Below, in pieces: positions 1,278 through 54,660 of a stretch of DNA of 64,000 nucleotides. Position 1 is the first letter of the stretch. Each line of letters starts with the position of its first letter. A model generated the notes under the pieces. It was not told where the DNA came from. It did not search any database and worked only from the letters and a program-made list of their open reading frames with translations. The position numbers and the translations under genes are program-made. Source of the stretch: Trichobilharzia szidati (taxonomy: Eukaryota > Platyhelminthes > Trematoda > Strigeidida > Schistosomatidae); the NCBI GenBank assembly GCA_944472155.2, contig OX235273.1, positions 5,615,204 through 5,679,203 on the forward strand. The letters are read 5' to 3'.

Positions 1278-1390
1278 ATTGGATGGAGGATTTCATCATG
1301 AGCTAAGATCAGTTCGAGAACCACTGAAAAGCTTGGGAGTACTTGACAGCCGTTTCGTCTTAGTTTGGGACTCTTCAGACTGGGACTTGT
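1278..1390 (-). repeat. SINE-alpha 3' half
   Basis: The reverse complement contains the hammerhead-like core followed by the family signature AGTACTCCC...TGGTTCTC...AGCTCATGATGAAATCC. The tRNA-like head is missing. It is the same module as at 16744, 31480, 34060, 54775 and 61230. Confidence 0.8.
1340..1384 (-). ncRNA. Hammerhead-ribozyme-like core in SINE-alpha
   Basis: Minus strand: CTGAAGA (1372-1378), a stem II that can pair GTC with GAC, GAAA (1353-1356), then CGGCTGTC with the predicted cleavage triplet GTC ending at 1345. Conserved core bases C3, U4, G5, A6, G8, A9, G12, A13 and A14 are present. Helix III is only four pairs without a loop and helix I looks weak, so activity as a monomer is doubtful. 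Confidence 0.55.
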
Positions 1391-2121: not shown

Positions 2122-3240
2122 GACTGACTGGGTTCAGCGTTGAACTTTGCACAGATGTGCAGCAGTTCAAGTCGCCACACTCCCTCCTTGAAGCACACAC
2201 AACAAAAGAAGAAAGTATAAAGATATTCAAAATAGAGAAAGTAAACAAAGATTTAAGGCGAAAAAGAATGGTAACATCGAAGAACAATACAGTTCCATTA
2301 GGTATTATAAGTCACAAGGAGTGGATGCATCTGCGCCATTCATTGAGAACCATTTTGAGCCAACCAAACCACAAATTGTCTCCAGCATTCATTGGTGTTT
2401 ACCGTCCCAAGTACCCCAACCAGTCAAGAAGTCTACACCTTCCTACGTGGCTTAAACTAACTGTTGTGGATTTATTTCATTGACTGATGAAGCCATGTTT
2501 TGGTCTGACCATCACTACCTACCTCTTCTCCAACCTGATCCTAAATCAGCTAACATTGCCGGTCAAGGAAGGCGACGTCCAGGCATGCGTAACACATGCC
2601 CACCCTATTATGCCATTTCACATGGGAGATAGAAAGAAGACACCTATGATCAAAGACAGCTAAGTGGCTTTTTCATGTCTTCCACTTTCAATGAAAATGT
2701 CCAGGGCGGCGTAAACTGGCATATGCGAAACTAGCCTTCTGTATCCCTGGTGAGATTTCGTCAGCGATCAACCCAGTGGAGTTGGTTGATGCAAATTCCC
2801 AAATAAGTGAAGTGGTCGACATGCTCCAATAACCACTCCACTCCCTATTTCTAAGCTAGAAGTTAGTCAATGTAGTCCAGCCCTGTATTTTCATCATCTT
2901 ACATTTGACTAGAGCCAATTGCATATCAAATATTAGCAGATTGCATCTAAAGGTGTTCAGAAGACTTTGCATTTTGTCAGCGTGTTCACCTAGGAAGGAA
3001 GACTATATCATCCGCATGGTCTAAGTCAACGAGATTATTCCCTGGTGGTAGCAAGTCAATCCCTGAGTAGCTGAAGTCAGTTACGGTTAATTCCATTAGA
3101 ACTCCTATGACGGACGCCACTACCTTTCACCACAATTATCAGGCAACAAATCACCGTAAGCTCTCACCTAGCTGGCTGCATGAGTTCGAGTAGGGTGCGC
3201 CGATCAGTGCAATGTATTTTCTTGGCATTAAATTGAAGCC
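2122..3240 (-). mobile_element. LINE-B 3' half, RT fragment
   Basis: Minus-strand translation shows an RT catalytic segment, GIDLLPPGNNLVDLDHADDI, near 3020-3060. The 3' end near 2122-2500 is collinear with the plus-strand copy at 38437-39540. The A-D-D catalytic motif and C-terminus fit an RTE-type non-LTR element. The frame is broken repeatedly, the 5' part is absent, and open frames on the plus strand here are antisense shadows. Confidence 0.8.
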
Positions 3241-4304
3241 TATAAGAACAACGAATATCTAAAATTAGCTTTTATTGAGCACATCGTTATTGTTTATGCA
3301 TTTGATTATTTCATAGAGGCGTTTTACAAATCACTGTCTCGAATGCCTTTTATTTTCTTTATCCTGCTTTAATCCTCAAATGTTTTTTTCATCTGCTTTG
3401 AACTGTCTGCTTAGCAATGAAACAAAAATTATAAGCAGTAATCTCAAAAGCAGCAAGCAAACACCTAACTCTGTTTATTTTGTTTTGTTTATGAGTAGAA
3501 ATGTGTTTACACGCGATTCTGCATACTGATTTTATTCACACTTGTCTCACTGTTGATTTTGTCTAATCCCTATGTTGTGAGAGGAGGAGAGAAGAGGAAA
3601 TGAGGGTAGATTTGTTTTATTTTCAACATGTTTAAGTATTTTTTGTGGGATTTTATTTCCCGTTCATCGTTTGTGATTGAACTGAAATGCCAGGATCTCT
3701 ACAGATATGTCGCATCTCGATGTTCGCGGTCGGATAATGTATGATGTTTAAAATTATATTATTGGAATGATGGTGTTTGATGGAGGAATCTAGAATGGGC
3801 ATTTCGTCCTACTTATGAAGCTTGTCAGCTAGTTGGTGAACCTATATCTGCGGTCAGTGATTACAGAATCTCTGACACATGGACCCATCAAGCACTGATT
3901 TAAGTAACAAAGCTTTTTTCATGCTTTCTTTGCTTTGGTAATGCGATGTCTCAACTTCTCATCTTATCTGATTTCTCAACCTTACGATTTTACCTCCTCT
4001 TTTTTGATTTCTAAAATAGTTTTCGCCTTTTTGCTAGTTTATTACAATCGACTTGAACTAATTACATTATTATGCAACCTTTTCCATTTCTCGTCTACAT
4101 TGCATGAACTATCGGTGTATACAGTGAAGAAATGTAACTTCTCAGAACATTTGATTTATTACTTTAGCGTTTCTTGCTAACTGACACCATTCGATTGTTT
4201 CAGCTACTCTAAGAGTCACCTTACATTTTCCTGTACTTCGCATTCCAGTGAATCATACGGCTGCAAGTCTCACTTTCCCTCTTTTTCTGGCTTGTTAACA
4301 ATTT
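3241..4304. other. No recognised feature
   Basis: A/T-rich with a short GA-rich patch near 3580-3605. The small open frame at 3935-4180 has no motif and no repeat partner. Confidence 0.45.
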
Positions 4305-4332
4305 TGAAACAGGCAACAAGTGTTGTTAATAA

Positions 4333-4382
4333 AGTAGGATTTAGTGAATTCATCAAATTACGGTAGAACTCGTCAGCTGAAT
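4333..4382 (-). ncRNA. Decayed hammerhead motif, left arm
   Basis: Mirror of the motif at 5310-5358: CTGACGA is kept (4370-4376), but GAAA has become GTAA and the helix I partner has changed. Probably inactive. Confidence 0.45.
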
Positions 4383-4760
4383 ACGCTACATACACGGATA
4401 TATATGCCTTTGAAATTACATTAGGAGATATAAGACTGATAAGTAAACAAACCACATTGAATTAGTCATGCAGAAAGACAGGTGCGAATGTTTTACAGGT
4501 CATGTTCAATTAGATAAGTGGAGGAAGGGAGTATGAGAGATTGTAATTAAGATAAAATGGATTACGCTTCAATTACATCACTTAGATAAACAATTAGACA
4601 TTAGGGAATATATCAAGAATTGTAAACAGAGTTAAATCAATTGTAATAGTTATAATAGCAATAATAATAGTGTTGAAGTAAGTTAAGATAATCCTACTGA
4701 TAAAGGATAGTTTTAAATGGATCAATAATAATAATGATAGGTAGAATAATAAGTAAAACG

Positions 4761-5050
4761 TATTACCATGGTAGATTCAGAGTCACGACCATCCCTTTTT
4801 GTACACAGAGACCTGGTTTATAAACTCGAATTGCTAAAGCCTCTGCGACTGCAAGCATCTTTTTGTTTCTTTGTCCGCTGACAATAGTGAATGAGGTTTT
4901 TACCACTTTGCATTCAGGTGTTTTCAACCATTTTGGCAAATGCTCCATCATGCGATGAGTAGACAATCGCCTTTCTGTACGACCGATGTATTTGCTTCCA
5001 CAAACAAACTGAAATTGATATACGCAGTTTGAAGTGCCGATACTGAAGTG
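4761..5050 (-). pseudogene. PLE GIY-YIG endonuclease fragment
   Basis: Minus-strand translation reads NCVYQFQFVCGSKYIGRTER then LSTHRMMEHLPKWL and ends AEALAIRVYKPGLCVQKG...LNLPW followed by a stop. VYQF...KYIGRTER is the GIY-YIG signature, and the last block is the PLE C-terminus also seen at 42756-43110 and 60290-60420. RT is absent. The final 67 codons are open, but the domain is incomplete. Confidence 0.85.
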
Positions 5051-5309
5051 CTGATATTACTCTGTTTGCAATTCTTGATATATTCCCTAATGTCTAATTG
5101 TTTATCTAAGTGATGTAATTGAAGCGTAATGCATTTTATCTTAATTTCAATCTCTCAGACTCCCTTCCTCCACTTATCTAATTGAACATGACCTGTAAAA
5201 CATTCGCACCTGTCTTTCTGCATGACTAATTCAATGTGGTTTGTTTACTTATCAGTCTTATATCTCTCGAATTAATTTCAGTAGTATATATATCCGTGTA
5301 TGTATAGTG

Positions 5310-5358
5310 TTCAGCTGACGAGTTCCACCGAAATTTGATGAATTCCTTAAATCCTGAA
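5310..5358 (+). ncRNA. Type I hammerhead ribozyme candidate in PLE tail
   Basis: Helix I TTCAG (5310-5314) pairs with CTGAA (5354-5358). The core is CTGACGA (5315-5321) and GAAA (5330-5333). Helix III ATTT...AAAT (from 5333 and up to 5352) includes the canonical A15.1-U16.1 pair, and the cleavage triplet is ATC (5351-5353). Stem II (GTTCCACC) pairs poorly. Hammerheads are known in PLE pseudo-LTRs, which supports the call. No tertiary contact could be judged. Confidence 0.7.
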
Positions 5359-5393
5359 TTATTAGACTTTGTTGCTTGTTTTAAATTCATATC

Positions 5394-6214
5394 GGGAAAC
5401 AAATATTTTCAATTATTAACGATTATTAAACAAGGCGGGGGTTAGGCCAACGTTGGGCATGAATCAAATTTGGACGTCATACGTGGCTTGCGAGATTTCT
5501 ACGAATAAGCCATCAACTCAAATTACTCTTTACACATACTTAGAATTTCATATTCATATTATTACGTAACTTCCACTGCCTTACTCAACTTTTCTCATCC
5601 ATTGACAACTCATTATCTCTTCGTGAAAACAAATTCTATATCAAAGCGATTGTACAATCAAACAGCAGAATGAATTCTCCCATAATACAGCCTATTCTCT
5701 GAATACTAATTGCCTTGTACTCTCCATTAAAATACATTCCCACTGAACTTGAAACATAATCAATTCTGACTCCTTTTCCATATCTATTCCACATACATTT
5801 CACTTGAAATTAATTACTTTTTGAGATCTGAAATTTATTCAAATGAATTAAATTAGAAAACTGTATCAATTAAACGATTTTGTTTTATTTTTCAAAATGG
5901 CGGTTTTTTCAAATTTAAAGTTCGCGGAAAATTAAACAGCTCATAATTTTATCTGACCAATTTGTTTCGTTTTTCTTGGAATAAGAGTCGGGGCTATTTC
6001 AGTTCAACGGTGAATGAAATAGAGTGGGTTATGTAACCCGAAAAACTTAGAGATGGATCACAGAATAGATTAGACTATAAGAATATCAGGAAAAATGTGA
6101 CATTTCGGCTTCATACATTTTATACAAGATATCTACATCAATAAGTTATACAGTAAATTCCTTAATTATTTTAACAAGTCACTTGGAAAAACTTATTAAA
6201 AGATACATTTGAGC
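5394..6214. other. No gene; possible PLE-tail remnant
   Basis: A/T-rich and without an open frame of interest. AGCGATTGTACAATC...AATGAATTC near 5645-5675 resembles the PLE 3'-end motif at 47200-47235, but this is weak. Confidence 0.4.
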
Positions 6215-6290
6215 AATAAGTATAAAACTTGGTCCCTGTGGTAGAGTATAACTCCATTATAGGTAAGATTTTATTTCAATAAATCACACA
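6215..6290 (-). repeat. Inverted PLE 3' tail
   Basis: CTGTGGTAGAGTATAACT is the reverse complement of AATTATACTCTACCACAG in the tail of the plus-strand PLE at 48738-49650. It lies directly before a plus-strand PLE body, so tail and body are inverted relative to each other. Confidence 0.55.
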
Positions 6291-6745
6291 GTGGTATGCA
6301 GTAATAACAATGGTGAAATTAATAATGATAGCATAAATAACAGGGAATATAAGGCATCTTTAGTTACACCATATAAGGAGGGGAAATCTGAGACCCTATG
6401 TAGGATTCTCAATAAAGCAGGAATTGGAGTGGTGGCATTCAAACCTACAAACTCACTCAAGTAGGACAAGCTCTATAGGCTAAAGTATCCGGTGGACCCA
6501 ATTAAACACCACAATATAATTTACAGAATACCTTGCAATGAGTGTTAGTTAAGTCAACCACATAGATTAGTAAGACGAGTAGATCGGGGTGATCAGATTG
6601 TCAGAACATAAGAATTAAGCTCAGGTAACAACGACTGATTCCACGAAGGTAAGTAATTTGGAAAGGAGCTCAGCAGTTGCACTGCATTCATTAACAATGG
6701 AAAATCACACGATATGGTGGAGGAGGGTTAAAATTCTAAGAAGTC
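6291..6745 (+). pseudogene. PLE connector and endonuclease fragment
   Basis: The translation gives VTPYKEGKSETLCRILNKAG then NIIYRIPCNEC and, after shifts, LERSSAVALHSLTMENHTI with VKILRS. The NIIYRIPCNEC block is the start of the GIY-YIG domain. A near-full homologue lies at 48738-49480. Stops and frameshifts disable it, and its 3' end is cut by LINE-A at about 6746. Confidence 0.8.
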
Positions 6746-11031: not shown

Positions 11032-11224
11032 ATTTTTTGATTTTTGATTTACAGCTTGACTCCACACCGTACTTTCAGTACAAGTGTGGAATTTTCAGCA
11101 TGGATATCGGTAGCCCAAATTCAGGCCGACCATAGATATCGGGTGTGCGCCGGCAGGGGATTGAACCCCGGACCATGTGCATGGTCGGCGAGAGTCCTAA
11201 CCACTGTGCCACCGACGCACAGAA
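11032..11224 (-). repeat. SINE-beta inserted in PLE
   Basis: On the minus strand: CGTCGGTGGCACAGTGGTTA (A box), GGGGTTCAATCCC (B box), ACACCCGATATCTATGGTCG, and a CAAAAATAAAT-type tail. Copies lie at 17160, 27325 and 53606. A target-site duplication was not obvious. Confidence 0.85.
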
Positions 11225-11261
11225 TCTGACCTGGTTACAACACCTGCCTCACCCATGAAAA

Positions 11262-11806
11262 TAACATCTTTTCAAGCAAACTGACTCTCAAAATATCGTT
11301 AAGATATGTAGATGATACTTTTGTAGTACTAAAACGAGATCTACACAATTCATTCCTGGAGAAAAAAAACTGTGTATCTCCCAGAATCCAGTTTACTTCG
11401 GAAGCAGAATCAGACGTCGGTGAACTACCATTTCTAGACTGCCTGGTTAAGAGAAGGGAAAACGGACATTTCAGTATATCCATATTCAGGAAGAAAACCC
11501 ACTCCAATAAATATTTAGACTTCAAATCATCACACCCCATCAGCGCAAAAATTTCAGTTGTTTCAAGTCTTCTAAGACGAACACACTCTCTGATAACGGA
11601 TGAGAAAGAAAAAGAAGAAGAAATATCAAACATTACTGAGACTCTCAAGCAAAACAACTGTCCAAGGGACTTCATCAACAAAATCAACACAGACATTAAG
11701 TATGGCCGAAAACGCATTCCGAAAACATGGACCTCAGCAGTCGTCATTCCACATAGAGCAGAGACGTCAGATGAGATCAGAATAGTATTCAGCAAGTTCG
11801 ACGTTT
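11262..11806 (+). pseudogene. PLE reverse transcriptase C-terminal half
   Basis: A long open stretch encodes LTLKISLRYVDDTFVVLKRD; YVDD is RT catalytic motif C, at 11305-11316. It is followed by LPFLDCLVKRRENGHFSISI, FRKKTHSNKYLDF (thumb primer-grip region), and YGRKRIPKTWTSAVVIPH before a stop at the position of FSKFDV. About 180 codons stay open, which is unusually well kept for this window. The minus-strand frame covering 11235-11843 is its antisense shadow. Confidence 0.85.
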
Positions 11807-12565
11807 GAGTTTTTTTCAAAACATCAGACACACTGTGAAACAACCTTGTCCATATAAAAGACCAGATCCCTAAAGATTCTCTATCTAATTGTGTCTATAA
11901 AATAAAATGCTTGCTTGGAATGTGATGCGATATACATCGGACAAACATCTCAAGAAATCAAAATCAGAAGAAATGAACACTGAGGAACTCGGTTGAACTA
12001 AAAAAGCTTGAAAAATCATCAGCTATAGAATCAGGCCACAAAATTGATTTCGACAATATTGAAATAGTCCAGAAAAACTTCAGAAATCCCAAAGAACGTC
12101 TAATATCATCAGAAGCACTTCATATCAAGTGCCTGAATAAGAATGATGGACTAAAACAGAATTTGACCTGGTTACAACACCCCACCGCTCCCCCACGAAG
12201 TGACAAAATCAACACGAATATGATATGCAAGTTCACTATTTAAACACACACTACATTTATAGTGTTACACACTGATCAAATCCAAAAGGCATCTACACTT
12301 GGTTTTGTTATCTTTACCAATTGACCAACTTGACAACGAAAAATGACCCAGGACTGACGAAAGATGATCAAGTTAGTAAGCTTTGTTTTGATATCGTAAC
12401 AGATGTACTATTACCTTTGTTATTTGGTATAGCGATCGTCATTGTTATTTTGACTTTTAATATGTCCCCATTTCAACTTGACCTAAGTCTATTTTCTCAC
12501 CTCTTAACTATACGTCACATATATGTTGAGATTTTGTGAATTCCGGTTTAATAATACTTTGATAA

Positions 12566-13594: not shown

Positions 13595-15068
13595 TTTTTA
13601 TGCATGATAGTGACTAACGCTTTGAGCTGGAATATGCATTTTCTACTTCTTTTGGCCTCGTCAACTGTAAGGATGTGCTATATATTGACCAGTCAGTTAA
13701 CTCTTCAAAATTTGGGGGATTATTCATTACGCTACTGGGGATTCCAGTTGTACAAACGTAACTTCCAGTTGCAGACAACCTGAAATTAAAATGGCTATGT
13801 AGAATATCATAACAACGAACTCAGATCAAACGGTGGATGCCTTCCATTTATGTACGTTCTGGAAAAAATCCATAAGGCCAATATGCCTTTATGACCCATA
13901 TTATCAATGACAAAATCACCATCTCACAAACTAGTCCAATTTCTAGCTAATTGAAAACATTTATTTCCCGATATTTCCTGATTCATTGAAGCCGATTCAA
14001 AAGAAATTTGTAAATCATAGCTTGTATGACACCTTCCAAGATTTTAACGAAGTCGACCATGTCGATATATCAAATAAACTAATGGTGTCATGCGACTTGA
14101 CTGCCTTGTTTACAAGCGTACCAGTGATGGAAACAATAGACATCATTTGTAAACAAACGGATCTTTTGCCATAACCGAAGACAGAGATGAAGCGCCTACT
14201 AATTCTCTGCACAAAAGACATTCAATTGAAGTTCAGTAACCAATTCTACCGACAAACTGACGGGTTCGCCATGGGTTTACTTCTTGGACTTATTCTAGCC
14301 GATATCTTCATGGTTTATCTCGAATAGACGTGACTGAGTGACTCTATCAATGAAACAACATGCTGTCGTCGATACGTCAATGATACTTTTGTTGTTTGTA
14401 ATGACATGAGTCAGGCATCCATATTATTTGACCGCCTCAATGAGATCCATCCAAACATTAAATTCACCATGGAATACGAACACAACGATGAGTTCAATTT
14501 CCTGGACCTAAATGTAAAAAGAAGAGACGATGAAACGGTCGAAATGTTCATCTACAGAAAAGAAACTTTGACCGGACAATACCTTCACTACAACAGCTTC
14601 TGCCCTATAAGCTATAAGCGGGTAATAGTAAGGACACTGTACGACAAGGCCAGGAAGTTATATTCGCCTAATAAGGCAGAAGAAGAATTAAGTTTTGTTG
14701 AAAATTGCTTTAGGGAAAGCGGGTATCCAAAGGGATTTATCTTAAAGTACAGCAAAGAAAGAGATAAGAAAGCGAAGTATCCAACAGTTGAAAAGAAGAA
14801 AGTGTTTATTTGTCACCCATTCAAAGGAGATGCAGTGTCACACAAGACTGACAAGGGAATGAAAGGTACAATAAAAAGAAGCTCATAGCATCATACAGCA
14901 ATACATCTCCTGTAAGCCAATCAAAACTGGATAAATACGCTGCTGATGTTACCTCCGACTGCATTTATGAATTTACCTGCACTTGCGGCAGCAAGTACAT
15001 TGGAAGGACGGAAAGAAGGGCTTCCATCCGGTTTTCTGAACATATTCCAGGAAAATTGTGCCTGAAAG
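13595..15068 (+). pseudogene. PLE RT plus GIY-YIG, catalytic motif mutated
   Basis: In order: LSMTKSPSHKLVQFLAN (fingers), VSCDLTALFTSVPVMETI-like (motif A), FAMGLLLGLILADIF (motif B), CRRYVNDTFVV (motif C at 14373-14384, second residue pair V-N-D in place of V-D-D), FNFLDLNVKRRDDETVEMFI (thumb), RTLYDKARKLYSPNKAEEEL, and CIYEFTCTCGSKYIGRTERR (GIY-YIG) with SEHIPGKL. Stops lie between motifs A and C. The 14406-14888 part is open for 160 codons. The 3' end is cut by LINE-A at about 15069. Confidence 0.9.
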
Positions 15069-15800
15069 GAGCCAGAGTTTCTTGTTGCTGATTCTTTCTG
15101 GCTAGCTGGCCATTTGGTATTAAGTATGGAGGCAGTGGAGTTGGCCACCGCGCACAAAGGTCTGCAATGACTTGTTGGAAATCATTTTCTTGATTCACAC
15201 GCTGGCCAAGTTTCTGTTCCGTATAGAAGAACGGACTGACTACGAATCTGTCTTGATTATCTGAGCCTTCTTCTTCATGCTGGCTGAGTTGGAGTGCAGT
15301 GCAGAAGATTTTCCCACTGGTTTTTTAGTTGGTGGAAGCGTATCTTGCCTTTCCGATTGTGGTTAAATTTCTCGTTTTCATCCGTTCTGACTGCCGATGA
15401 TTGAAAAGACGCTTCCTGGATGGATAGATGACAGAATTGTCCTCTGTCAAATCCCCCCCGTTGATCGTGATTGGTGCCGGTCGTTGTTGTTGTTGTTGTT
15501 TGTGGTGGTAGTTGTTTATCCTCATCACCTTCGTCTTCTCTGTAGTCACCTGCAGTCCTGCCTTCACCGACCACCCCTTCAGCCAGTTAGTTGGTTTTCA
15601 TTTACAAGTCTTCGAATTTGTGTGACATTAAACATAAATCACCCACGCTTGAAATCCGGATTTTCTAGAGTCTTATTATTGGTGGTCCAACGTATTCCTG
15701 TCGTCTTTCCACCTACGCACAGTCTGATACATAATCCAGTCAATCACAATTAGGAATATCATCGGTGGTGATAGGCTGGCAGTCTTGCCTTGTTGTTTGA
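15069..15800 (-). mobile_element. LINE-A fragment
   Basis: Minus-strand translation shows KTKVMRINNYHHKQQQQQRP then APITINGGDLTED, the family's Gln-rich segment, and NQENDFQQVIADLC farther 3'. The 3' terminus is missing where it abuts the PLE. Frames are broken. Confidence 0.82.
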
Positions 15801-16743: not shown

Positions 16744-17050
16744 TTCATTGGTTGGAGGATTTCATCATGAACTGTCATCAGTTAGACGGCCATTGTAAAA
16801 CCAGATGAGAGTACCGGACAGCTGTTTCGTCAGCCTAGTTTGGGACTCTTCATCAGCACGCATCCTCCGACAGGGTTCGAACCCAGGACCTTCTGGTTAC
16901 AAAGCTACCTAGCTAGCTCGTAGACCATCAAGCTACTGGTATCCGATTAATGACGAGCCGATGAATTCTAACTTCTGCCAATTCATCTTATAGCGTGAAC
17001 ACTTCTCAATGTCTTCGTCTTCAATGAGTTAATGCCTCACTTTCAACATG
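16744..17050 (-). repeat. SINE-alpha copy with half of the central spacer
   Basis: Minus strand: GAATTGGCAGAAGTTAGAAT, GGCTTGATGGTCTACGAGC-like A box, GGTTCGAACCC B box, GTGCTGATGAAGAGTCCC, GACGAAACAGCTGTCC and the end GTTCATGATGAAATCC. The hammerhead-like core has A where C3 is expected if helix I is drawn as GTGCTG. Only one arm of the palindromic form is present. Confidence 0.85.
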
Positions 17051-20725: not shown

Positions 20726-20961
20726 GCCATCCACTCCTTCATTCCAAACAGTGGCACGTTCTAATGAAATCCTACAAAGATTAACAAAAAGGCCGAAAGA
20801 TATAAAAGAAGATAATTATTGAAATTTGAATTTCAAAGCATCCCAAAATTTCCGTTTAAATGAGGTGAATATATATATATCAAGTTTTAAAACCAACCTA
20901 TCACATATAATGGCTATGCGCAATTACGTCGTCATTTACGCATATTAGAGGCCTACATATC

Positions 20962-22839
20962 ATGAATAGTTATTACAATACCTCGCCATCTGTTATCTTA
21001 ATGCAAGCTGATGAATCACTGATTCAACAGAACAGGACAATTAATCCTTTTACAACTGAACCTGTTGAAATTCTATTGCCGAGTATTATCGCGACAACAA
21101 TTCTACTTGTCAGTATTTCTATTATTGGTACCATTGGGAATAGTCTTGTTGTCTGGGCATTTCGTAAACAAGTTAGTCAAGGTATTGTCTCTGGTCTGTT
21201 TATTCTTCTCTTGGCGTGTAACGATTTATTTATATGCTTAATTGTGATCCCCTGCACCCTGTACTTAGATATTTGGACAGGGGATACAACAGATTGGATA
21301 TGCAGGATACACCTGTCGATGAAAGGGTTTGTTGTACCAATATCAGCGTGTATATTAATGCTGATAGCTATGGAAAGATTCTTGCTGATATGTTTTATAC
21401 CCGGTATACAAATGAAACGTAAACATATTATCATAGCACTGGTGATAATCTTTTGTATTGGTCTGTTATGTGCTCTACCAATGGGTCTACATGTCACTGC
21501 TATTGATGCCTGTAAAGAACACGACGAACTGTTGGATTTGAATACCCTGAAGCATAGTTTATCTACATTTAAAAGTAAAGAATGGTTTATTCAACTACGT
21601 GTTACAAAACGTTGTGATAAAGACGAGACATACCTGAATGATAACATGTACTGGTATCATCAAATCTGTGTATTGATTTTATTTATTGGCCTGTTTATTG
21701 GTACAGCTGGGACATATGCCTTAATATTTTTATTTGTTTGGAGGCATGAATCATTTATGTATGAAAAATACGGGAATTCTAAAGTTGCAAAAGGCAGTTG
21801 GGTACGTATACATGCAGCGCCGAATTCTTCCGGTGAAGCGATCAGTCCATCGATATGGTATCCATTTAGAAAGCGATTGTCATTTCGCCGTAAACAGAAA
21901 CAGAATGACAACAACATTAATAACAATAACAGTAATAATAATAATAATAACGAGAATGCACAAAATGCAAAACTGAAACAACAAAGTTTAAGTCTTCAAA
22001 ATGAAGCCAAAGAACAGAGTCATGAAAGTCTACACCAGTCACAACAACAACAACAACAAGAAGCAATACCACTTCAACAAGTCAGTAGTACACTTTGTGT
22101 TAATCAACCACAAGCAGATATAACCACATCAACAAGTTTTGAAGCGTCTAATCTAGACCGGTTAAGTTGTGCATGTCTATGCGAAAAAGATGCAGAGAAT
22201 GAAGATTATTTGAAAAGTATTCAAAATCCTATTTTTACTTATCAAAATCTAATTCACAACAGTCCTGGGGGTGCCGGTGGTGGCGCTGCTGGTGGTGATG
22301 GGGTGGTTGCTAAGGTAACGAAACAACCACAGTGTCTTATCCACTTGAATGATTTAAAGATATCAAGTAATGACAAAAATAAAAGTCCAGTGGAAATGAA
22401 ATCTCACTCAGATTCCCCGAAACAATTGACAGCAGCCAACCTTGAACGTCGACGTAAACCGCATGTACGTACAGCACAAACATTGGCATTAGTCGCTGTG
22501 AACTTTATTATCTCATATACACCATATTTAGTCTACACAACAATACCAATACAAAAGAGGCAAGTCGAGGTATTCAGAGATAAGCCTCATTGGACTAGTC
22601 AAATACGTCGAGTACTATTTTATATGTATTTTATTAATTCAGCCCTGAACCCAATCATTTATTCTTGTATGAATCGACATTTTCGTGCATGTACACAAAA
22701 ATTTTATAATGATTTAAAGCTGAAGTTGAAACATTGTACGGGGAAATCACGTCTCGTGAAAGAGGCGACTCATCAACAGAATAATAATTCACTCCCTTTG
22801 GATAAAGTTACTAATACAGAAGAGAATACTGAGAATTAA
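20962..22839 (+). CDS. Rhodopsin-like (class A) GPCR, orphan, intronless
   Basis: A 625-codon uninterrupted frame; an in-frame TAA at 20908 precedes the first ATG. Seven membrane segments: about 39-66 (GNSLVVW, N60), 77-104 (LACNDL, D88), 113-146 (C114, then E138-R139-F140 in place of D-R-Y), 155-178, 233-260, 503-528 and 550-572 (N563-P564-I-I-Y567). N6 and N24 are N-glycosylation sequons in the short N-terminus. The sixth helix has S-Y-T-P (518-521) where C-W-x-P is usual. The third intracellular loop is about 240 residues with Asn (about 316-331), Gln (about 359-365) and Gly-Ala (about 436-445) runs. It should act at the plasma membrane through G proteins. Ligand unknown; a flatworm-specific orphan family such as PROF1, or a peptide receptor, is possible. 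Confidence 0.93.
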   Translation: MNSYYNTSPSVILMQADESLIQQNRTINPFTTEPVEILLPSIIATTILLVSISIIGTIGNSLVVWAFRKQVSQGIVSGLFILLLACNDLFICLIVIPCTLYLDIWTGDTTDWICRIHLSMKGFVVPISACILMLIAMERFLLICFIPGIQMKRKHIIIALVIIFCIGLLCALPMGLHVTAIDACKEHDELLDLNTLKHSLSTFKSKEWFIQLRVTKRCDKDETYLNDNMYWYHQICVLILFIGLFIGTAGTYALIFLFVWRHESFMYEKYGNSKVAKGSWVRIHAAPNSSGEAISPSIWYPFRKRLSFRRKQKQNDNNINNNNSNNNNNNENAQNAKLKQQSLSLQNEAKEQSHESLHQSQQQQQQEAIPLQQVSSTLCVNQPQADITTSTSFEASNLDRLSCACLCEKDAENEDYLKSIQNPIFTYQNLIHNSPGGAGGGAAGGDGVVAKVTKQPQCLIHLNDLKISSNDKNKSPVEMKSHSDSPKQLTAANLERRRKPHVRTAQTLALVAVNFIISYTPYLVYTTIPIQKRQVEVFRDKPHWTSQIRRVLFYMYFINSALNPIIYSCMNRHFRACTQKFYNDLKLKLKHCTGKSRLVKEATHQQNNNSLPLDKVTNTEENTEN

Positions 22840-31479: not shown

Positions 31480-32095
31480 GGATTTTCATCATCGGCTTAC
31501 ATTAGTCAGAGAACCATTGGAAAACCGGGGAGTACTGGACAGCTGTTTCGTCACAGTTTGGGACTCTGCAGCACGCACCCACCGGGAATCTAATCCGGGA
31601 CCCTCTGGTTAGAAGGCGAGGTCGTAGACCATTGAGCCACTGCAACCCGATTCAATGGCCAACCTATGAATTCCAGCTTCTGCCAATTCACGAGATAGCG
31701 CGACCTCTAGCCAATGTCTTCGGCGAGTAATTGTCCTCACTCCCGACCTGCTGCACCCTGCTTACTAGAACCCCAGGTAACCTACCTGAATAGGGTAAGT
31801 CGCTAGTGAGCATCTCGCAAATACTTGCCTAAGACTTTGGCTAGGTGTCGCACTATGTCGTGAATTGGCAGAAGTTAGAATTCATGGGCTGGCCATTGGA
31901 TCGGGTCCCAGTGGCTTAATGGTCTACGAGCTAGGTCGCCTTGTAACCAGAAGGCCCTGGTTTCGAATCCCGGTGGGTGCGTACTGATGAAGAGTCCCAA
32001 ACTGGGACGAAGCAGCTGTACAGTACTCCCAGGTTTTCCAATGGTTCTCTGACTAATGTCAGCTCATGATGATAATTCTGTAACAAAACGATATT
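31480..32095. repeat. SINE-alpha palindrome, most complete
   Basis: Left arm (minus) 31490-31725 and right arm (plus) 31845-32075 are two full SINE-alpha units head to head, each with GTCTACGA-type A box, a GGTTTCGAATCCC or GATTAGATTCCC B box and hammerhead-like core. The centre at 31726-31845 (TCCTCACTCCCGACCTGCTG onward) is unique to this palindromic form. In the right arm GTACTG (31988 onward) can pair with CAGTAC, with ATGAAGA and GAAG between; C3 of the hammerhead core is then A. Confidence 0.88.
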
Positions 32096-32129: not shown

Positions 32130-34015
32130 CTTAATCAAAGTATTTTTAAAACGGAATTTACAAAGTCTCAGCATATATATAAAAAAGAGTTAAGGGGTGA
32201 GAAGATAGACATAGGTCAAGTTAAAAGAACATATTGAAAGTCAAAATAACAATGAAGATCACTAAACCAAATAACAAAGGTAGTAATAGTACATCTGTTA
32301 TGGCTGGTGTCAAAACAAAGTTTACTAACTTGATCATCATTCGTTAGTCTGAGGTCATTTTTCGTTCGTCGTCAAATTGGTCAATTGGTAAAGATAACAA
32401 AACCAACCAGGTGTACATGCCTGTTGGATTTGATCAGTGTGTAACATTATAAAAGCAGTATTTGTTTACATAGTGAACTTGCATATCACATTCGTATTGA
32501 TTTTGTCACTTCATGGGGGAGTGGTGGGGTGTTGTAACCAGGTCAGATTCTGTTTTAGTCCATCATTCCTATTCAGGCAATTTGGTTTCCACTTGATATG
32601 AAGTGCTTCTGATGATATTAGACGTGGCCTAATTCTATAGCGTGTAGACCTATGGCTGATGATTTTTCAAGCTTTTTTAGTTCAACCAAATTCCTCGGTG
32701 GTCAAAGAGATACTCTACGGTGTTCATTTCTTCTGATTTTGATTTCTCGAGATGTGTGTCCGATGTATATCGCATCACATTCCAAGCAAGGATTTTATTT
32801 TATAGACACAATTAGATAGAGAATCTTTAGGGATCTGGTCTTTTACATGGACAAGGTTGTTTCGTAGTGTGTCTGATGTTTTGAAGAAAACTCAGATGCC
32901 AAACTTGCTGAGTACTATTCTGATATCATCTGATGTCTCTGCTCTGTGTGGAATGACGACTGCTGAGGTCCATGTTTTTGGAATGCGTTTTCGGCCATAC
33001 TTAATGTCTGTGTTGATTTTGCTGATGAAGTTCCATGGGTAGTTGTTTTGCTTAAGAGTTTCAGCAATGTTTGATATTTCTTCGTCTTTTTCTTTCTGAT
33101 CCGTTATCAGAGAGTGTGCTCGTCTTAGAAGACTTGAAACAACTGAAGTTTTTGCGCTGATGGGGTGTGGTGATTTGAAGTCTAAATATTTATTTGAGTG
33201 GGTTTTCTTCCTGAATATGGATATACTAAAATGTCCGTTTTCCCTTCTCTTAACTAGGCAATCTAGAAATGGTGGTTCACCGACGTCTGATTGTGCTTCC
33301 GAAGTGAACTGGATTCTGGTAGATACACAGTTTATTTTCTCCAGGAATGAATTGTGTAGATCTCGTTTTAGTACTACAAAAGTATCATCTACATATCTTA
33401 ATCATATTTTGGGAGTGAGTATGCTTGAAAAGATGTTATTTTCATGGGTGAGAGAGGTGTTGTAACCAGGTCAGATTCTGCTTTAGTCCATCATTCCTAT
33501 TCAGTCAATTTGGATTCCACTTGATATGAAGTGCTTCTGATGATATTAGACGTTCTTTATGATTTCTGAAATGCTTTTTCTGGATTATTTCAATACTGTC
33601 AAAATCAATTTCGTGACCTCATTTTATAGCATGGCTGATGATTTTTCAAGTTTTTCTAGTTCAATTGGATTTCTCGGTGCTCGAATAGATGCTCTATTGT
33701 GTTCATTTCTTCTGAATTTGATTTCTCAAGATGTTTGTCCGATGTATATCGCACCACATTCCAAGCATTTTATTTTATAGACACAATTAGATAGAGAACC
33801 TTTAGGGATCTGGTCTTCTATATGAACAAGGTTGTTTCGTAGTGTGTCCGAAGTTTTAACGAAAGCTCTAATGTCGAGCTGACTGAGTACTCTTCTGATA
33901 TCATCTGACGTGTCTATATGGAATGACGACTGTCGAGGTCCATGTTTTCGGAATGCGTTTTCGGCCATACTTAATATCTGTGTTGATTTCAAACTGTTAA
34001 AGTGTACTCTTATCC
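32130..34015 (-). mobile_element. Two PLE copies in tandem
   Basis: Reading leftward from 34015: connector, NCVYKIKCLECGAIYIGQTS, C-terminal SEALHIKW region ending near 33480, then immediately the RT palm of the next unit with LRYVDDTFVVLKRD (YVDD at 33384-33395), PPFLDCLVKRRENGHFSI, YGRKRIPKTWTSAVVIPH, GIY-YIG with a frameshift at 32781-32788, the same C-terminus at 32590, and the 3' region to 32130. It is homologous in reverse orientation to 10961-12565. Both units are defective. Confidence 0.86.
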
Positions 34016-35747: not shown

Positions 35748-36885
35748 TTAAGAACACAATATTCAGCGAAGAGACTCTTTCCAACAACGAATTTATTATC
35801 AAGCTGTACAATCGTATATATATATATCGTAAATTTTCTTCGCTGCAATTGTCTTTTTAATAAATCGTATATACATGGTTTTTAAGAAATTATATCCGTT
35901 GAGGGAATTAGGTCAAAGGTGTGAATACATGAAATAATAATAGTATGAAATGCAATTAAAATATTTGTGATTATAATCATAGTTTAATGTCAACTTGTTC
36001 TCTACCTCTGCAAAAGATAAGCTCCTCCGTCTGGCCGCCTCCATGTGCATATATCGGTTCACCTGCTCTTGTGAAGCAAGGTACATTGGCCGTAGTCAGA
36101 GGACGCTTTCCACACGGATATGAGAACATATTTCAGCTTGGTTTTACAAGGGAGAAAGGAAGTGTGTGAGAAGCTCTATTTTGGAACACCTGATCGACTT
36201 CTGCCACTCTGTCAACCGTGATCATATATAGAATCCATGCTAACTTCCCGCGTTTTATTCGTTACAGACTTCTAAATACAGCTGAGGCCTTGGCAATTCA
36301 TGACTTTAAGCCATCCAGACCTTTGTGTACAAAAGAAGTATGTACAATCCCTACTTCTGACTTGGCCGTAGAGGGATAGACATTTATTTTGTTTATTTAG
36401 TTATTCTATGTACTTTTCCCTCATTACTACGATTATTATTGTTATCATTATTATTGTTACTATTCTCATTCTGAATCTTTTCCACTTGACCCACTTGACA
36501 TTTTAAACCCGAAATTATTAATTTTTATATTTTTAATTTTACAATATTGATTCCTATCTTATCAAATTTCACACCATGTTATGTAACATTTTATATTCGT
36601 CTACTAATCTTATAATTATGTAACCCTTTTCAAAATCTATACACCTTATGTATTATTCTATATAAGACATTAATTATTTTGCCACTTGACATTAAACTAT
36701 GATTATAATCACAAATATTTTAATTGCATTTAATACTATTATTATTTCATATATTCACACCTTTGACCTAATTCCCTCAGCGGATATAATTTTTATAATA
36801 AAACCATATATATATATATACGATTGTACAGCTTGATAATAAATTCGTTGTAAAGAGTCTCTTCGCTGAATATTGTGTTCTTAAA
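35748..36885. repeat. PLE palindrome around a GIY-YIG fragment
   Basis: 35748-35995 recurs inverted at 36685-36885 (ACAATATTCAGCGAAGAGAC versus its mirror at the right end; GTGATTATAATCATAG mirrored near 36700). The loop holds a plus-strand endonuclease: FTCSCEARYIGRSQRT, EHISAWFYKGERK and LLNTAEALAIHDFKPSRP, ending near 36385, followed by A/T-rich 3' sequence. The same inverted-tail layout as 4305-5393. Confidence 0.82.
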
Positions 36886-38436: not shown

Positions 38437-39540
38437 ATTGACATGTCACCAGGGAATAATCTCGTTGACTTAGAATATGCAGATGATACAGTTCTCACTC
38501 CTAGGTGAAGACACTGACAAAATGCAGAGTCTTCTGAACACCTAGAGCTGCAATCTAAGAATGTTTGGCATGCAATTTGCTCCTGCTAAATGTAAGGTTA
38601 TGTTACAGGACTGGACTACACTAACTCCTAGCTTAGAAATGGGGAGTGAAGTGGTAGAGCACGTCGACCACTTCACTTATTTGAGAGGTTGCATCAGCCA
38701 GCACCAACGGGTTGATTGCTGATGAGATCTCAGCACGGATACACAAGGCTAGTTTCGTATATGCCAGTTTACACCATCTCTGGTGTAGATGAGATATCTG
38801 GCTGGCTGTCGTCCAAAGGTCTGGTGTACTGCTCAGCAGTCCACTCCGTCCTCCTTTATGGTTGTGAGACCTAGCCATTGAGAGTTGAAGACATTAAAAG
38901 ACTAGCTGTATTTGATTGTAGGTGCCTGCGTTCCATCTCTCGTGTGAAGTAGTATAATATGGTGAGCAGTATTGAGGTTAATCTTCGAGTGCTAGGTAAT
39001 GAGGAGAAATAAGTGGATGAGGCTGTGAAGCTACATCGACTGAGATGGTTAGAACATGTGTCACCCATTCCTAGCCATCGCTTTCCTCAACGGGCAATGT
39101 TAGCTGACATAAGGTCAGGTTGGAAAAGAGTTAGCTAGCGGTGGTCAAACCGAAACATAGCTCTATCAGTCAATCATATCCATAACAGTTAGTTTAAGCC
39201 AACCAGCCACGTAGGAAGGTGTGGATTCCCGGGTTCGGGCCCTCGGGACGGTAAACACCAATGGCTGGAGACAATCGGTGATATGGCTCAAAATCGTTCT
39301 CAATGGCTGGCGCAGATGAATCCACTCCTTGTGACTTATTATCTCCAATGAAACTATATCGTTTTTCGTTATTAATATTCCTTTTGTATCATATCCCTGT
39401 CTACTGTCTCTATTTTTCAATTCTTCTATTTTCTTCCCTTGCTTTGTGTGATATATGGAGTGTGGCGACTCGAAATGCTGCACATCTGTGCAAAGTTCTA
39501 TGTTGAAACCAGTCAGAAAGGCAGTCCCCATGACTGCCCG
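38437..39540 (+). pseudogene. LINE-B RT C-terminal half and 3' end
   Basis: Translation shows IDMSPGNNLVDLEYADDTVL (RT motif C, Y-A-D-D), SVLLYGCETWPLRVEDIKRL, AVFDCRCLRSISRVKYNMVS, DEAVKLHRLRWLEHVSPIPS, and WLETIGDMAQNRSQWLAQMN ending at a stop near 39350. About 190 bp of 3' sequence follows. The C-x-x-S-I, L-H-R-L-R-W-L and M-A-x-N-R-x-x-W blocks fit RTE-type ORF2. Frameshifts lie at 38510-38700, and the 5' part is missing. Confidence 0.87.
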
Positions 39541-42375: not shown

Positions 42376-42755
42376 TAATCATACATATTTTAACAGTAAT
42401 AGCTTCTTGTACAAATCTCTGAATATTGCCGTCATCATTTAACCATCCCTACCACAACTTTTGCTTAACAAGTTGCCCTATTTGGTTGTGTATTCGCAGT
42501 TAAGACGATGAGTGTCAATCGCATGTGAAGACAGACACTCGTTGATGACAGTGGCTGTTTGTAATGCTATACATTGTGAATAAACAGATAATAGAGTCCA
42601 TGATTCATTGGATACGGTCTCAGTGACTCATCTCATTAGTAATAAAAGCCTTGACTTCGATTAAATGCTGTTATACATGCCCAAGTATTATCTGTATATT
42701 GAGAAAATATTTATAGATATCACTTTGAATTCATCATCCTCAGAAATAATAACCG
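42376..42755. other. No recognised feature
   Basis: Nothing identifiable between LINE-A and the following PLE. Confidence 0.4.
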
Positions 42756-43410
42756 CACTCAGTGTTGCTTGATGATATGCGTACAATTAGGCAGTTTCAT
42801 CGTCGTATTTCTGAACATCATCCAGCGTGGTTAAGCAAGGGGCAAGTAAAATCTATCCGTAGCTCTATTTTAGCACACCTTGTTGATACTGAGCACAAGG
42901 TTGATGTCAATACTGCATTTAAAATTATTTATCGTATTCCAACTAATCTTAAGTTTGCTCTACGAGTTCGTCTTCTACAGACAGCAGAAGCAATTGGAAT
43001 CCACCAGAAGAAACCAAGCCTATGTGTACGGAAGAAATTTGTACAGCCACTTTCCTTACCGTGGCCATCGTTACAAGATAGGGCTACGTCGCTCTCCGCC
43101 TCCTATTAAATTATAATTGTCCAAATTATTTTATTTTTATTTTGACCACTTCATCTTTAATTACGTGTTATTCTTGTGAAATTAATTTATTCTATCCATT
43201 TCTACCTTTTAATTGTGTGTATTAATTTTCTTCCTTAATTATCTACCCATTGACATTTTGACGCTGTTTAATTATTGTTAGCAAACATACCGCAACTTGT
43301 TTGGTAAACTGTTGTGTATTGTAATAAAAATGCTATACGTGTATATTAGAGTAGAGCCAGAGATGAGAATCCAATTGAAAAGTAAATATTTCTTCGCTCA
43401 GTCTTTCTGT
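42756..43410 (+). pseudogene. PLE endonuclease C-terminus and 3' tail
   Basis: An open stretch encodes RRISEHHPAWLSKGQVKSIR then AHLVDTEHKVDVNTAFKIIY, LKFALRVRLLQTAEAIGIHQ, KPSLCVRKKFVQPLSLPWPS. The GIY-YIG core is missing 5'. The 3' tail ends near ATTTCTTCGCTCAG, as at the ends of other PLE copies. Convergent with the minus-strand PLE at 43905. Confidence 0.85.
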
Positions 43411-43904: not shown

Positions 43905-44645
43905 GCCAACAAGGGAGGGATAATGGCTGTGTACGAACTTCTTTTGAATGAGCATAGTTTATGTTTAATAGTTCGAATGCCTATCGTCTGCCTCAGCTGT
44001 GTGCAGTAGACGAATACGTAGTCTATTAGAAAGATTAGGTGGGATGTGATGAATTACCTTGAAAGCTCTCGTTTTCGCTACTACATGACCACTATCAATT
44101 AAATGTGACAAAATTGAGTTACGGATTGTTTTTGTTTGTCCTTTTCCAAATCACGATGAGAGATGTTCAGCAGTTACACGTTGCCTAAGCTATCTAGTAG
44201 TACGCCCAACATAACTGGCACCGCAGGTGCAGTTGAATTGATAAATGCACATAGATGTGGCAAAACTATCTAGCTTATCCTTCGTTTGCGTCCCAATCAT
44301 TCGTCGGCTAGAGAATGACAAACATAGGTTTGCTGTGTAAAACGTTTTTCGTATACTCCTTGAAAGTCTTGGGAACAGAATCTCACTTGACACACAAATC
44401 ACCATTAAATTATAACTTAATAAACAGGGGTTTATTCCTACAGTCATTTTCTCAGGTTTTCTCTTCAACTTTATCATATTTTTCTTTATGAAACTGATCG
44501 TACAGCCCGTCTCGGTCAAGGAATCATGAATCTGTTCAAATTGCTTTTGTAAGTGGTCACCCGTAAATATGTTTCTTGCTCTGTTCACAAGACATTTAAC
44601 AATATTTTTTAGATATTTAATGATTATTTCACCTCCAATCAACCC
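43905..44645 (-). pseudogene. PLE connector plus GIY-YIG
   Basis: Minus strand: VNRARNIFTGDHLQKQFEQI, ETGCTISFIKKNMIKLK, SRSIRKTFYTANLCLSFSSR, SMCIYQFNCTCGASYVGRTT (GIY-YIG), then FGKGQTKTIRNSILSHLIDS and LRIRLLHTAEA. 44190-44642 is open for 150 codons. The frameshift just after the endonuclease signature and the missing RT make it defective. Confidence 0.88.
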
Positions 44646-50050: not shown

Positions 50051-51020
50051 GTACGTGTAACTAATGCTTTAAAATTGACATACGCCATAAGATAATTATC
50101 TGTTCACTTTATGTGACAGCTGTGAGTATCTTTTTATGTGTTGTTGGTAACATCATCTTTGTATGAGACAATGTTGAGCTCTCGGATATTTTCTGCGAAC
50201 AATATCTGAAGAAATGACAAACAACACAGTACTAGAAGGATGATAAAGACATTGTCTTTGAGTATCATTTATTATCGCATGAGTGACTGGTACAATGAGC
50301 GGTTGAAGTAAGACCAAGAGTGATCTGGCCATTTTTTAATGTAAAAAAAGTAACTGATTTCTAATGAACCGCCTATACTTCGTGGTTATCATGGCATCTA
50401 GATAGGACTATACTTATATGATAATGGAGGTTTTTCAGCTGTCCATACTAAGAGGATATGTAATTTAGTGTAACAGTTGGGTTTTTTCCCAGAAAGTTCA
50501 GCAACCTCTTTGGCTGTATGCAAGTATCATTGTTTCAAATTGATTGTTCGTACATGATGTCAGTTTCAATTGTTCACATTAACGGTTGATCATAGTAATG
50601 TACGTGGGAATATCGTAACTTTCATTTATGATTAACTTAAGACACCGATATCGACAATTAAGGATGATTGATTACCAAAGTGTTGTCATAATGTCTGCAT
50701 TAGGGCGTCAAATGTGTGATTACGTGGATTCTGTAGCGGAAGTATATTGCAGTGCTGAAAAAGCGCATAAAAACCAAACTTTCTAAGTAGGAGATGCACT
50801 TTCCAGGAATCATCTCGGCCAACAAAATCTTTTTGAATTCGTCTTCATTTTTGACGAAGATTTGACAAGAAGAGATTATGGGACTCTGAAAAGATCTATC
50901 TATAGAAGTTCTTTATGAAATGAAAAACTGATAAACATCTATGGTAGGATACCTGTGGGTCGAAAACTGACTCTCATCTTTTTTCTGGCTATAGATCACT
51001 CACATAACACTAAAACAACC
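50051..51020. other. No recognised feature
   Basis: Nearly 1 kb without a family match; the right part may include decayed 5' PLE sequence, but no motif survives. Confidence 0.4.
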
Positions 51021-51610
51021 TGGCTCAAGATGAATATTCAGAACGTTTCGTGGAGAAGAACATGAAACCAAAGCCAAAAAGAGAAGAATGCACTTCAGTA
51101 CCAAACAAAACACTATATTTGAATTTGAACTTCAAGGAACACTTAGTGTCAATTGCCCTTAAGAGGAGAATCTCTAGTTTCTTAAAGAAGACCTTTCCTG
51201 CAGTAAAACTTATAGTGATATTCTCTAACCACCCAATGTTTCTGATTAGTGTGAAGGACAAACTCACAAGCATGACCACTCCAGTATTCACATACCAATT
51301 CCTTTTCTCCTGCGGAGCTAAGCACACAGGCTGTTCTATGCGGATCTATCCAAAACATATAAAAGAACATTACCCAGCATGGCTGCAAATACGAGGCACT
51401 AGTTCAACCAGAAGTGCCATAATTGAATACTTCGTCAACACCTATTACACCAACTCAGCTATCTAATTATTCAGAATCATTTACAAAGTAAGGAAAAGTC
51501 TGCTGAAAGCTGAGTGTTTCCGATTCCTCTAAAGGGCAGAAGCATTCAGCCATATGAATCGAGATGCTGGAGCCATTTGTTCAAAAGGAACTAGTCCAAT
51601 GTCTATATTT
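51021..51610 (+). pseudogene. PLE connector plus decayed GIY-YIG
   Basis: FVEKNMKPKPKREECTSVPN, KTLYLNLNFKEHLVSIALKR, then VFTYQFLFSCGAKHTGCSMR, where Y-I-G has become H-T-G, and KHIKEHYPAWLQIRGTSSTR. 51050-51466 is open for 138 codons. The connector is homologous to ENMKEKPLSPKVTTAPRKTL at 59900 in the plus-strand PLE. Confidence 0.85.
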
Positions 51611-53877: not shown

Positions 53878-54660
53878 TGTTTGTTAATTGCATTTTCGTT
53901 TGAGTACACGCCCACTTTGGCCAATGTAATGCTTGTTGCAGTTCATACAATTTATTTTGTAAATGGTAATAATTTTATCCCTTTTTTCTGTTGGGTCTTT
54001 CGGTTTGCACAATATCGAATGTAGTGATTTGACTGGCTTGTGTGCTATATCTATATCAAACGGTTTCAGTATTCTAGCTGTTATTTCAGAGATATTTCTC
54101 ATGTATGGTAGGATGAATTTTCTTGTGGTCTTTGATGATGGTTTCTTGTTGGTGTTTTGATTCGACTTTAAACACTTTTTGATGAAATTTTGTGGATAAC
54201 CATTCTTTTTGAAGACCGTTTGTAGGTACTTTTCTTCCATTCTTTTCAGCTCTGGAGTGCTACAGTGTGTTTGAACTCTTTCAAGCAATGTCTGCACACA
54301 GTTTCGTTTGTGAGTAATTGGATTATTGCTAGTATAGTTGAGTATTTGATCTGTGTGTGTTGATTTTGTATATACTTATGTTTCTAAATTTCCTGTGTTG
54401 GTTTTCCTGATTAAGACATATAAAAATGGGATTTTGTTATCTAATCCTTCTTCTCTTGTGAATTTGATGTCTTCAAATATGTTGTTTATTAGTCCTGATA
54501 TGGGCGTTCCCATTGATGTTCCTTTTTTGTGTTCATATATTCGAGTACTGAATTAAAAGTATGTTGTAAGGTATAATTTTATGAGTTCTATCCAAGTTGA
54601 TAATTGCGTTTTTATGTTTTCGTCACTATAGAGTAATTGTTGCACAGTTTCTGTTGCTAG
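53878..54660 (-). pseudogene. PLE of a distinct subfamily, RT motif B to GIY-YIG
   Basis: Minus strand: STRIYEHKKGTSMGTPISGL (motif B, with S-M-G-T-P), an internal deletion that removed catalytic motif C, IKFTREEGLDNKIPFLYVLI, then QTLLERVQTHCSTPELKRME, NGYPQNFIKKCLKSNQN, KPVKSLHSILCKPKDPTEKR and TIYKINCMNCNKHYIGQSGR (GIY-YIG). 53884-54297 is open for 137 codons. Confidence 0.87.

Follow-up and report, generated by a model that had tools for sequence, protein, structure and literature searches.

A head-to-head copy of a Penelope-like element with hammerhead-like motifs in its inverted arms in Trichobilharzia szidati

Anatomy of the inverted copy

Using a 64,000-nucleotide (nt) stretch of the genome of the bird schistosome (trematode) Trichobilharzia szidati (assembly GCA_944472155.2, contig OX235273.1, positions 5,615,204 to 5,679,203 of the forward strand; the whole of this stretch is the window, in whose positions all coordinates are given), we analyzed a Penelope-like element (PLE) that consists of two inverted arms around a remnant of a GIY-YIG endonuclease gene. 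The locus is an old, broken and dead PLE copy that most likely arose by a single head-to-head insertion. The arms, 5052-5385 on the plus strand and 4639-4303 on the minus strand, align locally at 91.1% identity over 338 columns, and the second-best match of the element inside the window had an E value of 0.059. These results bear out the ~330-bp inverted arms proposed by an earlier sequence-only reading, together with its assignment of the element to the PLEs and of the arms to inverted ends resembling pseudo-long terminal repeats (pLTRs). Because the right arm runs on into a ~30-nt tail, the insert is larger than the extent given by that reading (4305-5393), spanning ~4303-5412 (Table 1). This optional tail is present at the right end and absent from the left; pLTRs, either direct or inverted, of which one may bear a ~30-nt tail, are a feature of endonuclease-containing PLEs.

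The left arm reads as the ordinary 3′ end of a 5′-truncated PLE, because the adjoining minus-strand sequence is the end of a PLE endonuclease open reading frame (ORF), and the right arm reads as a second such end, inverted and cut inside the pLTR. The endonuclease fragment (5056-4763, minus strand) has 72% identity to the ORF end of another family copy, L046, with 17 residues missing, confirming that an isolated GIY-YIG fragment lies between the arms. In L046, a reverse transcriptase (RT) domain (RVT_1, 4.4e-14) and the same endonuclease occupy one 598-codon stop-to-stop frame, i.e., the RT plus C-terminal GIY-YIG arrangement of an endonuclease-containing PLE, of which the window copy retains the endonuclease end only. 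The endonuclease region of L046 aligns with the PF01541 domain of a relative, P0091. Pfam listed no GIY-YIG domain in the window fragment, in L046 or in P0001, a Trichobilharzia regenti protein, and a sequence search of the PDB with the window fragment and with L046 gave no match. The sole similar-length database protein found for the fragment is this T. regenti "GIY-YIG domain-containing protein" (64%), residues 3-26 of which correspond to the antisense of the arm (20/24, 83%) and are followed by the endonuclease. P0001 is an independent witness of the same kind of junction, read through in T. regenti.

Table 1. Features of the PLE copy and its flanks, in window positions
Feature	Positions	Strand	Remarks
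Left copy of imperfect 12-bp target-site duplication	4292..4303	.	10/12 match to 5413-5424
Left arm, short end without tail extension	4303..4639	-	3′ pLTR-like end of the endonuclease-bearing copy
Left-arm hammerhead-like motif	4332..4382	-	GAAA changed to GTAA, helix I broken; outer limits hand-counted from the right motif
3′ untranslated stretch	4640..4762	-	from endonuclease stop codon to arm
5′-truncated GIY-YIG endonuclease end of PLE ORF	4763..5038	-	17-residue internal deletion relative to L046
Copy-copy junction	5037..5051		~13-15 nt of filler repeating CACTTCA of the adjacent endonuclease sequence; window and L046 letters compared by eye
Right arm, second inverted pLTR-like end	5052..5385	+	truncated inside the pLTR
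Tract probably homogenised between arms	5052..5266	.	14 shared and 6 private differences from the family majority
Right-arm hammerhead-like motif	5309..5359	+	helix I 6 pairs, helix II 1, helix III 6; expected cut after 5353
ATG, probable family ORF start, inside the motif	5338..5340	+	putative; majority letters read by eye
Optional PLE tail extension, right end only	5383..5412	+	score 0.75 against the family tail
Right copy of imperfect target-site duplication	5413..5424	.	
Sequence expected in a single copy at an empty (pre-insertion) site			TTRTTAACRATT

Besides the element, the window holds at least nine PLE-like RT or endonuclease stretches, on both strands and many of different families (11230-11950, 14166-15070, 32750-33470, 35986-36368, 42753-43106, 43911-44645, 51014-51607, 53884-54468 and 59366-60416).

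Family copies, outer ends and target-site duplications

A search of the whole 1.11-Gb assembly gave 4302 first-look candidates for this family, of which we scored the best-scoring 40 (L001-L040) with all of their ends examined. The ends fall into two classes: short ends, which stop near GCTTGTTTTAAA, and long ends, which continue ~30 nt further to TTTTCAA. Among the 52 ends scored, 24 are long, 26 are short and 2 are partial, the partial ones belonging to the single-ended copies L023 and L035. Outer ends thus lie at two places shared across the family, ~45 and 75 nt downstream of the putative ATG, and these places resemble published internal reverse-transcription start sites (PMC11167929), not sites of ribozyme cleavage. 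In L045, two copies of the PLE end (1610-2938 and 5180-6504) lie ~3.57 kb apart; the 34 letters that follow the end probe are identical in both, so that a tandem duplication on the spot is likely.

Head-to-head pairs make up 12 of the 40 copies (L001, which is the window copy, and L013, L014, L020, L022, L028, L030, L032, L034, L038, L039 and L040), and their truncation points differ. Exactly one long end is present in every one of these 12 pairs (11 of 11 when L013, the other end of which is truncated, is set aside), an outcome with a chance of ~2e-4 if ends were independent; L010 and L024 have flanks in common, so not all of the copies are independent. In nine pairs it is the endonuclease-bearing copy that has the long end; in L001, L013 and L038 it is the other copy. 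Arms were detected with a 47-nt probe within ~1.5 kb, a distance extended to 6.5 kb upstream for 20 of the 28 single-ended copies, and none of these 20 showed an inverted arm; arms that the probe does not match, or that lie farther away, would escape this search.

Seven of the 12 head-to-head copies are flanked by duplications of 11-17 bp that contain no more than one mismatch; up to five of the counted bases may be the element's own ends, and 300 mismatched flank pairs yielded none as good. For the window copy, the two duplicates are TTGTTAACAATT and TTATTAACGATT, and 40 of 2000 random place pairs were as good; its best flank alignment, 15/19, runs into the element, and a fraction of 0.03 of 300 mismatched flank pairs matched it. 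The one-long-one-short rule and duplications that span both arms point to coupled priming on both strands of the target.

We considered and rejected twin priming on a single RNA, which should give ends from two different parts of that RNA; here both outer ends represent one and the same 3′ region. Two separate back-to-back insertions, or an inverted duplication made later at the DNA level, would sit well with a region dense in PLE fragments and with the weak target duplication of the window copy. However, the same layout recurs with different junctions in 12 of 40 copies, the pair as a whole is flanked by duplications in 7 of 12, and a later inverted duplication should have copied the tail too, which is on one end only; we therefore regard this origin as extremely unlikely. 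Self-priming, a model put forward for rotifer Penelopes in which a cDNA or an antisense template doubles back and serves as its own template, has in its favor that head-to-head is the commonest published inverted PLE layout and that palindromes at junctions were taken as its trace (PMC3846280). We nevertheless consider it quite improbable here, since the two copies in the window are truncated at different points (endonuclease and pLTR) and are separated by filler rather than a palindrome, the window junction being the only one examined for this, and since a snap-back would hardly leave outer ends of unequal class, one long and one short, in all 12 pairs.

Arm divergence and the hammerhead-like motifs

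The two arms of the window copy diverge as a mosaic. When compared with the family majority, the inner 215 positions carry 14 shared and 6 private differences, and the outer 119 positions carry 25 private differences and a single shared one (gap columns that recur at one place count as one event, and the window copy was kept in the majority). An alternative count with the cut at 205, all columns included and the window copy excluded from the majority, gave 14/6 for the inner part and 1/28 for the outer part (Fisher 7e-7). Private differences alone, 6/215 against 25/119, give a p of 9e-8, and this contrast is independent of the shared sites. The cut point was chosen post hoc; when cut points were permuted, none of 500 permutations gave a contrast in private differences as extreme. 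The inner ~215 nt were probably homogenised by gene conversion between the arms after insertion, which is the simplest cause of the mosaic.

The same mosaic could have formed without conversion, if the outer part mutates faster or if the templates were chimeric. We found that 11 of the 15 shared non-majority states are also present in some of 29 other arms, so the sharing is partly subfamily descent, as such an origin would have it. Several observations argue in the other direction: in the 29 arms, again compared with a majority from which the window copy was excluded, variability in the outer part (2.2%) does not exceed that in the inner part (2.8%), the private-difference contrast stands without the shared sites, and L013 and L028, the other pairs with an overlap well into the inner part, do not show the mosaic. 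Taken together, these make a mosaic without conversion unlikely. If gene conversion did act, the two hammerhead-like motifs differ more than the rest of the arms because both lie outside the homogenised part.

A hammerhead-type sequence is indeed present in each arm, with the left one degraded, as the sequence-only reading had noticed. The right motif contains CTGACGA (5315-5321), GAAA and an ATC triplet, its helix I consists of five Watson-Crick pairs and one G-U, and its helix II is a single G-C pair. In the left motif we confirmed the GTAA, and helix I is broken too (ATTCAG against CTACTT). Measured against the Rfam family Hammerhead_1 (RF00163), the right arm has the core CUGANGA...GAAA with an H17 cleavage triplet and the left arm, with its GTAA, does not; helix II, which should exceed one pair, consists of a lone G-C pair in the right arm and likewise of one pair in the family majority. 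The covariance-model search scored 21.7 bits for the right motif (E value of 0.026 for a 1.3-kb search and of 1.3 for the whole window) and 14.1 bits for the left (4348-4382), with neither arm above the gathering cut-off of 34 bits, an outcome that the sequence-only reading had itself set in advance as telling against it. The right arm has the core, ATC triplet and helix I of a type I hammerhead, and the description of it as near-canonical does not hold, given its one-pair helix II, its score and a predicted fold that is not a hammerhead. The hammerhead structure of the right arm has a computed energy of +0.3 kcal/mol against a minimum free energy of -6.9 for a fold that is not a hammerhead, and 39 of 200 shuffled sequences fold at least as well, in an energy model without tertiary contacts and with the left motif folded in a shortened form (4342-4382).

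We also asked how often such motifs occur. Among 60 simulated sequences of 64 kb (Markov-1, one strand), six motifs had a helix I of at least 5 pairs, and none combined this with a helix III of at least 4; when the exact core and helices are required, the whole window yields two motifs, the right arm and 61730-61771. We also searched loosely for CTGANGA plus GAAA (at most one mismatch overall, helices unchecked) in 15 stretches of the window, each covering the 1.1 kb that follows a PLE endonuclease or RT end. One or more matches turned up in 12 of these stretches, and 3 had none; judged by eye, only the left arm of the present element was accepted as a match at a PLE end.

The motif of the family is weaker than that of the right arm. 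Its majority form is TATTCAG CTGACGA GTTCTACC GAAA ... AAATC CTGCTTTA, with 3 pairs in helix I and 1 in helix II, and Rfam at E<=10 across 12 loci with family tails listed none of the tails, with other hammerheads listed in two of these loci (L002 and L021). The helix I letters are CTGCTT in the family and CTGAAT, a private change, in the right arm, and since the family motif has a 3-bp helix I, the good right-arm helix I is private to the window copy. Of the 47 arms that span the motif, 38 retain both CTGANGA and GAAA, which says little because copies average 96% identity to the majority (mean over the 29 arms). We accordingly did not accept family-wide conservation of the motif as evidence for a ribozyme, given this identity and the overlap with the probable ORF start. 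From the putative ATG the family majority reads MNSLNPALLTFIACFKFVSGNKCFQ, and the open frame would run through the tail (read by eye; no full-length family copy was found).

That the right hammerhead is living and the left one dead, the pair recording ribozyme processing of PLE tails, is very unlikely on this evidence. The right core, cleavage triplet and helix I are intact, the left has GTAA, and the motif is beyond chance. However, besides the single pair in helix II, the sub-threshold scores of the window and family motifs, the private helix I and the predicted fold, the outer ends of the arms overshoot the expected cut by ~35 nt on the left and 59 nt on the right, so the claim that the arms show ribozyme-processed tails fails as well. 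We suggest that the motif descends from a PLE hammerhead, and the right one looks like a weak relic that appears better than its family through private mutations. According to a review, PLE hammerheads are minimal versions in which helix III is usually absent (PMC6155905).

Other hammerheads occur in the window and in the family loci. One at 31981-32026 (plus strand), which by resemblance we label an Sm-alpha-like type I hammerhead, exceeds the Rfam cut-off at 38.6 bits and has a complete helix II, and five more lie below the cut-off: 16811-16859 (minus, 32.6 bits), 1339-1380 (minus, 29.2 bits), 31532-31574 (minus, 25.1 bits), 61728-61773 (plus, 25.0 bits) and 61284-61329 (minus, 23.6 bits). 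In L021 (98-1165, plus strand), four tandem hammerheads recur at a spacing of ~340 nt; three of them score 45.3 bits and the remaining one 40.1. This array is satellite- or retrozyme-like and ends ~335 bp before the matched part of a PLE copy.

Proposed insertion and comparison with known systems

As the cause of the anatomy, the end classes, the duplications and the mosaic, we infer one old insertion in which both target strands were primed and the two cDNAs were joined head to head, with conversion between the arms later, and we put the probability of this account at about 0.8. The element's enzyme would cut the two target strands at positions roughly a dozen bases from each other, and each 3′ end would then prime reverse transcription of the element RNA from either of two fixed internal start sites, which lie ~30 nt apart just past the ORF start. 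At this locus, one strand would have started from the distal site, giving the long end on the right, and the other from the proximal site, giving the short end on the left. Both cDNAs would have run inward and stopped early, one in the endonuclease and one in the pLTR. Their head-to-head joining, with a little filler in between, would have produced the tails that point outward on either side, flanked by a target duplication. Afterwards, the inner ~215 nt would have been evened by gene conversion, with the outer parts and their hammerhead-like motifs decaying separately. A ribozyme is probably unnecessary for these steps.

Several points weigh against this account. The 40 copies are the best-scoring of the 4302 candidates and so a non-random sample, the duplication of the window copy is imperfect and moderately better than chance, and 4 of the 12 pairs (L013, L030, L032 and L038) have no above-chance duplication. 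With PAc, the Poseidon element of Anolis carolinensis, start sites showed no apparent difference between strands in vitro (PMC11167929), a result that does not predict the one-long-one-short rule; the main in vitro start site lies 111-118 bp into the PAc ORF, compared with ends at ~45 and 75 nt from the putative ATG here. In addition, the published self-priming model also yields head-to-head arms (PMC3846280).

A broader rule can be put forward tentatively, and we hold it to be possible though rather more doubtful than not: every head-to-head PLE insertion may join a distal-start cDNA to a proximal-start cDNA, with the two active units of the complex committed to different start sites by strand. 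If this is true, long and short ends would be a readable record of which strand primed first. Neither the one-long-one-short count nor the homogenisation of the arms was found in the open-licence literature that we searched, and we claim no priority for them. The locus itself is ordinary for PLEs. Its interest is that thousands of candidate family copies allow a half-known insertion mechanism to be tested by counting, and that it corrects a tempting ribozyme reading of a motif made to look better than its family by private mutations.

The window also contains other features. A 642-codon uninterrupted frame at 20911-22839 (plus strand) resembles, by eye, an intronless seven-helix receptor. Sub-threshold mir-3492-like matches at 2733-2814 (plus, 33.2 bits) and 38669-38750 (minus, 31.7 bits; cut-off 44) may be copies of one repeat, and a match to mascRNA-menRNA with 67% G+C at 11147-11218 (minus, 25.6 bits against 42.5) is perhaps a tRNA-derived repeat.

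Comparison with known systems places the locus close to the PLEs of the rotifer Adineta vaga. In PMC3846280, Pen2_Av and its relatives are described as including 5′-truncated copies between inverted pLTRs, with head-to-head the most frequently observed inverted layout, a ~31-bp tail that is optional on one inverted pLTR, pLTRs that overlap the ORF start and, where they were seen, target duplications of 8-10 bp. That text nowhere uses the word hammerhead. The window copy shares the 5′ truncation, the inverted pLTRs, the head-to-head layout, the one-sided tail and the overlap with the probable ORF start. It differs in that the pLTRs named for the rotifer are ~180-220 bp with junction palindromes, whereas here a 334-nt arm is joined through filler.

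For the motifs, the nearest likenesses are to schistosome repeats and to PAc. The right motif shares its core letters and helix order with the type I hammerheads of schistosome Sm-alpha repeats (RF00163), and, unlike the Sm-alpha-like hammerhead at 31981-32026, it has neither a full helix II nor a passing score. As in PAc, a hammerhead-type sequence overlaps the ORF start (PMC11167929), but compared with PAc, stem II of the window motif is one pair, stem III is the longer one, and cleavage would be expected 16 bases into the putative ORF. The PAc hammerhead is active with protein only, and its hammerhead ribozyme (HHR) mutants still insert in vitro (PMC11167929). In the same system, both target strands are cut and extended, and two internal reverse-transcription start sites bound the tail (PMC11167929). 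Given the inverted pLTR pairs with a tail on one of them published for rotifer Penelopes (PMC3846280) and the in vitro work with PAc (PMC11167929), the structure in T. szidati is of a known kind.
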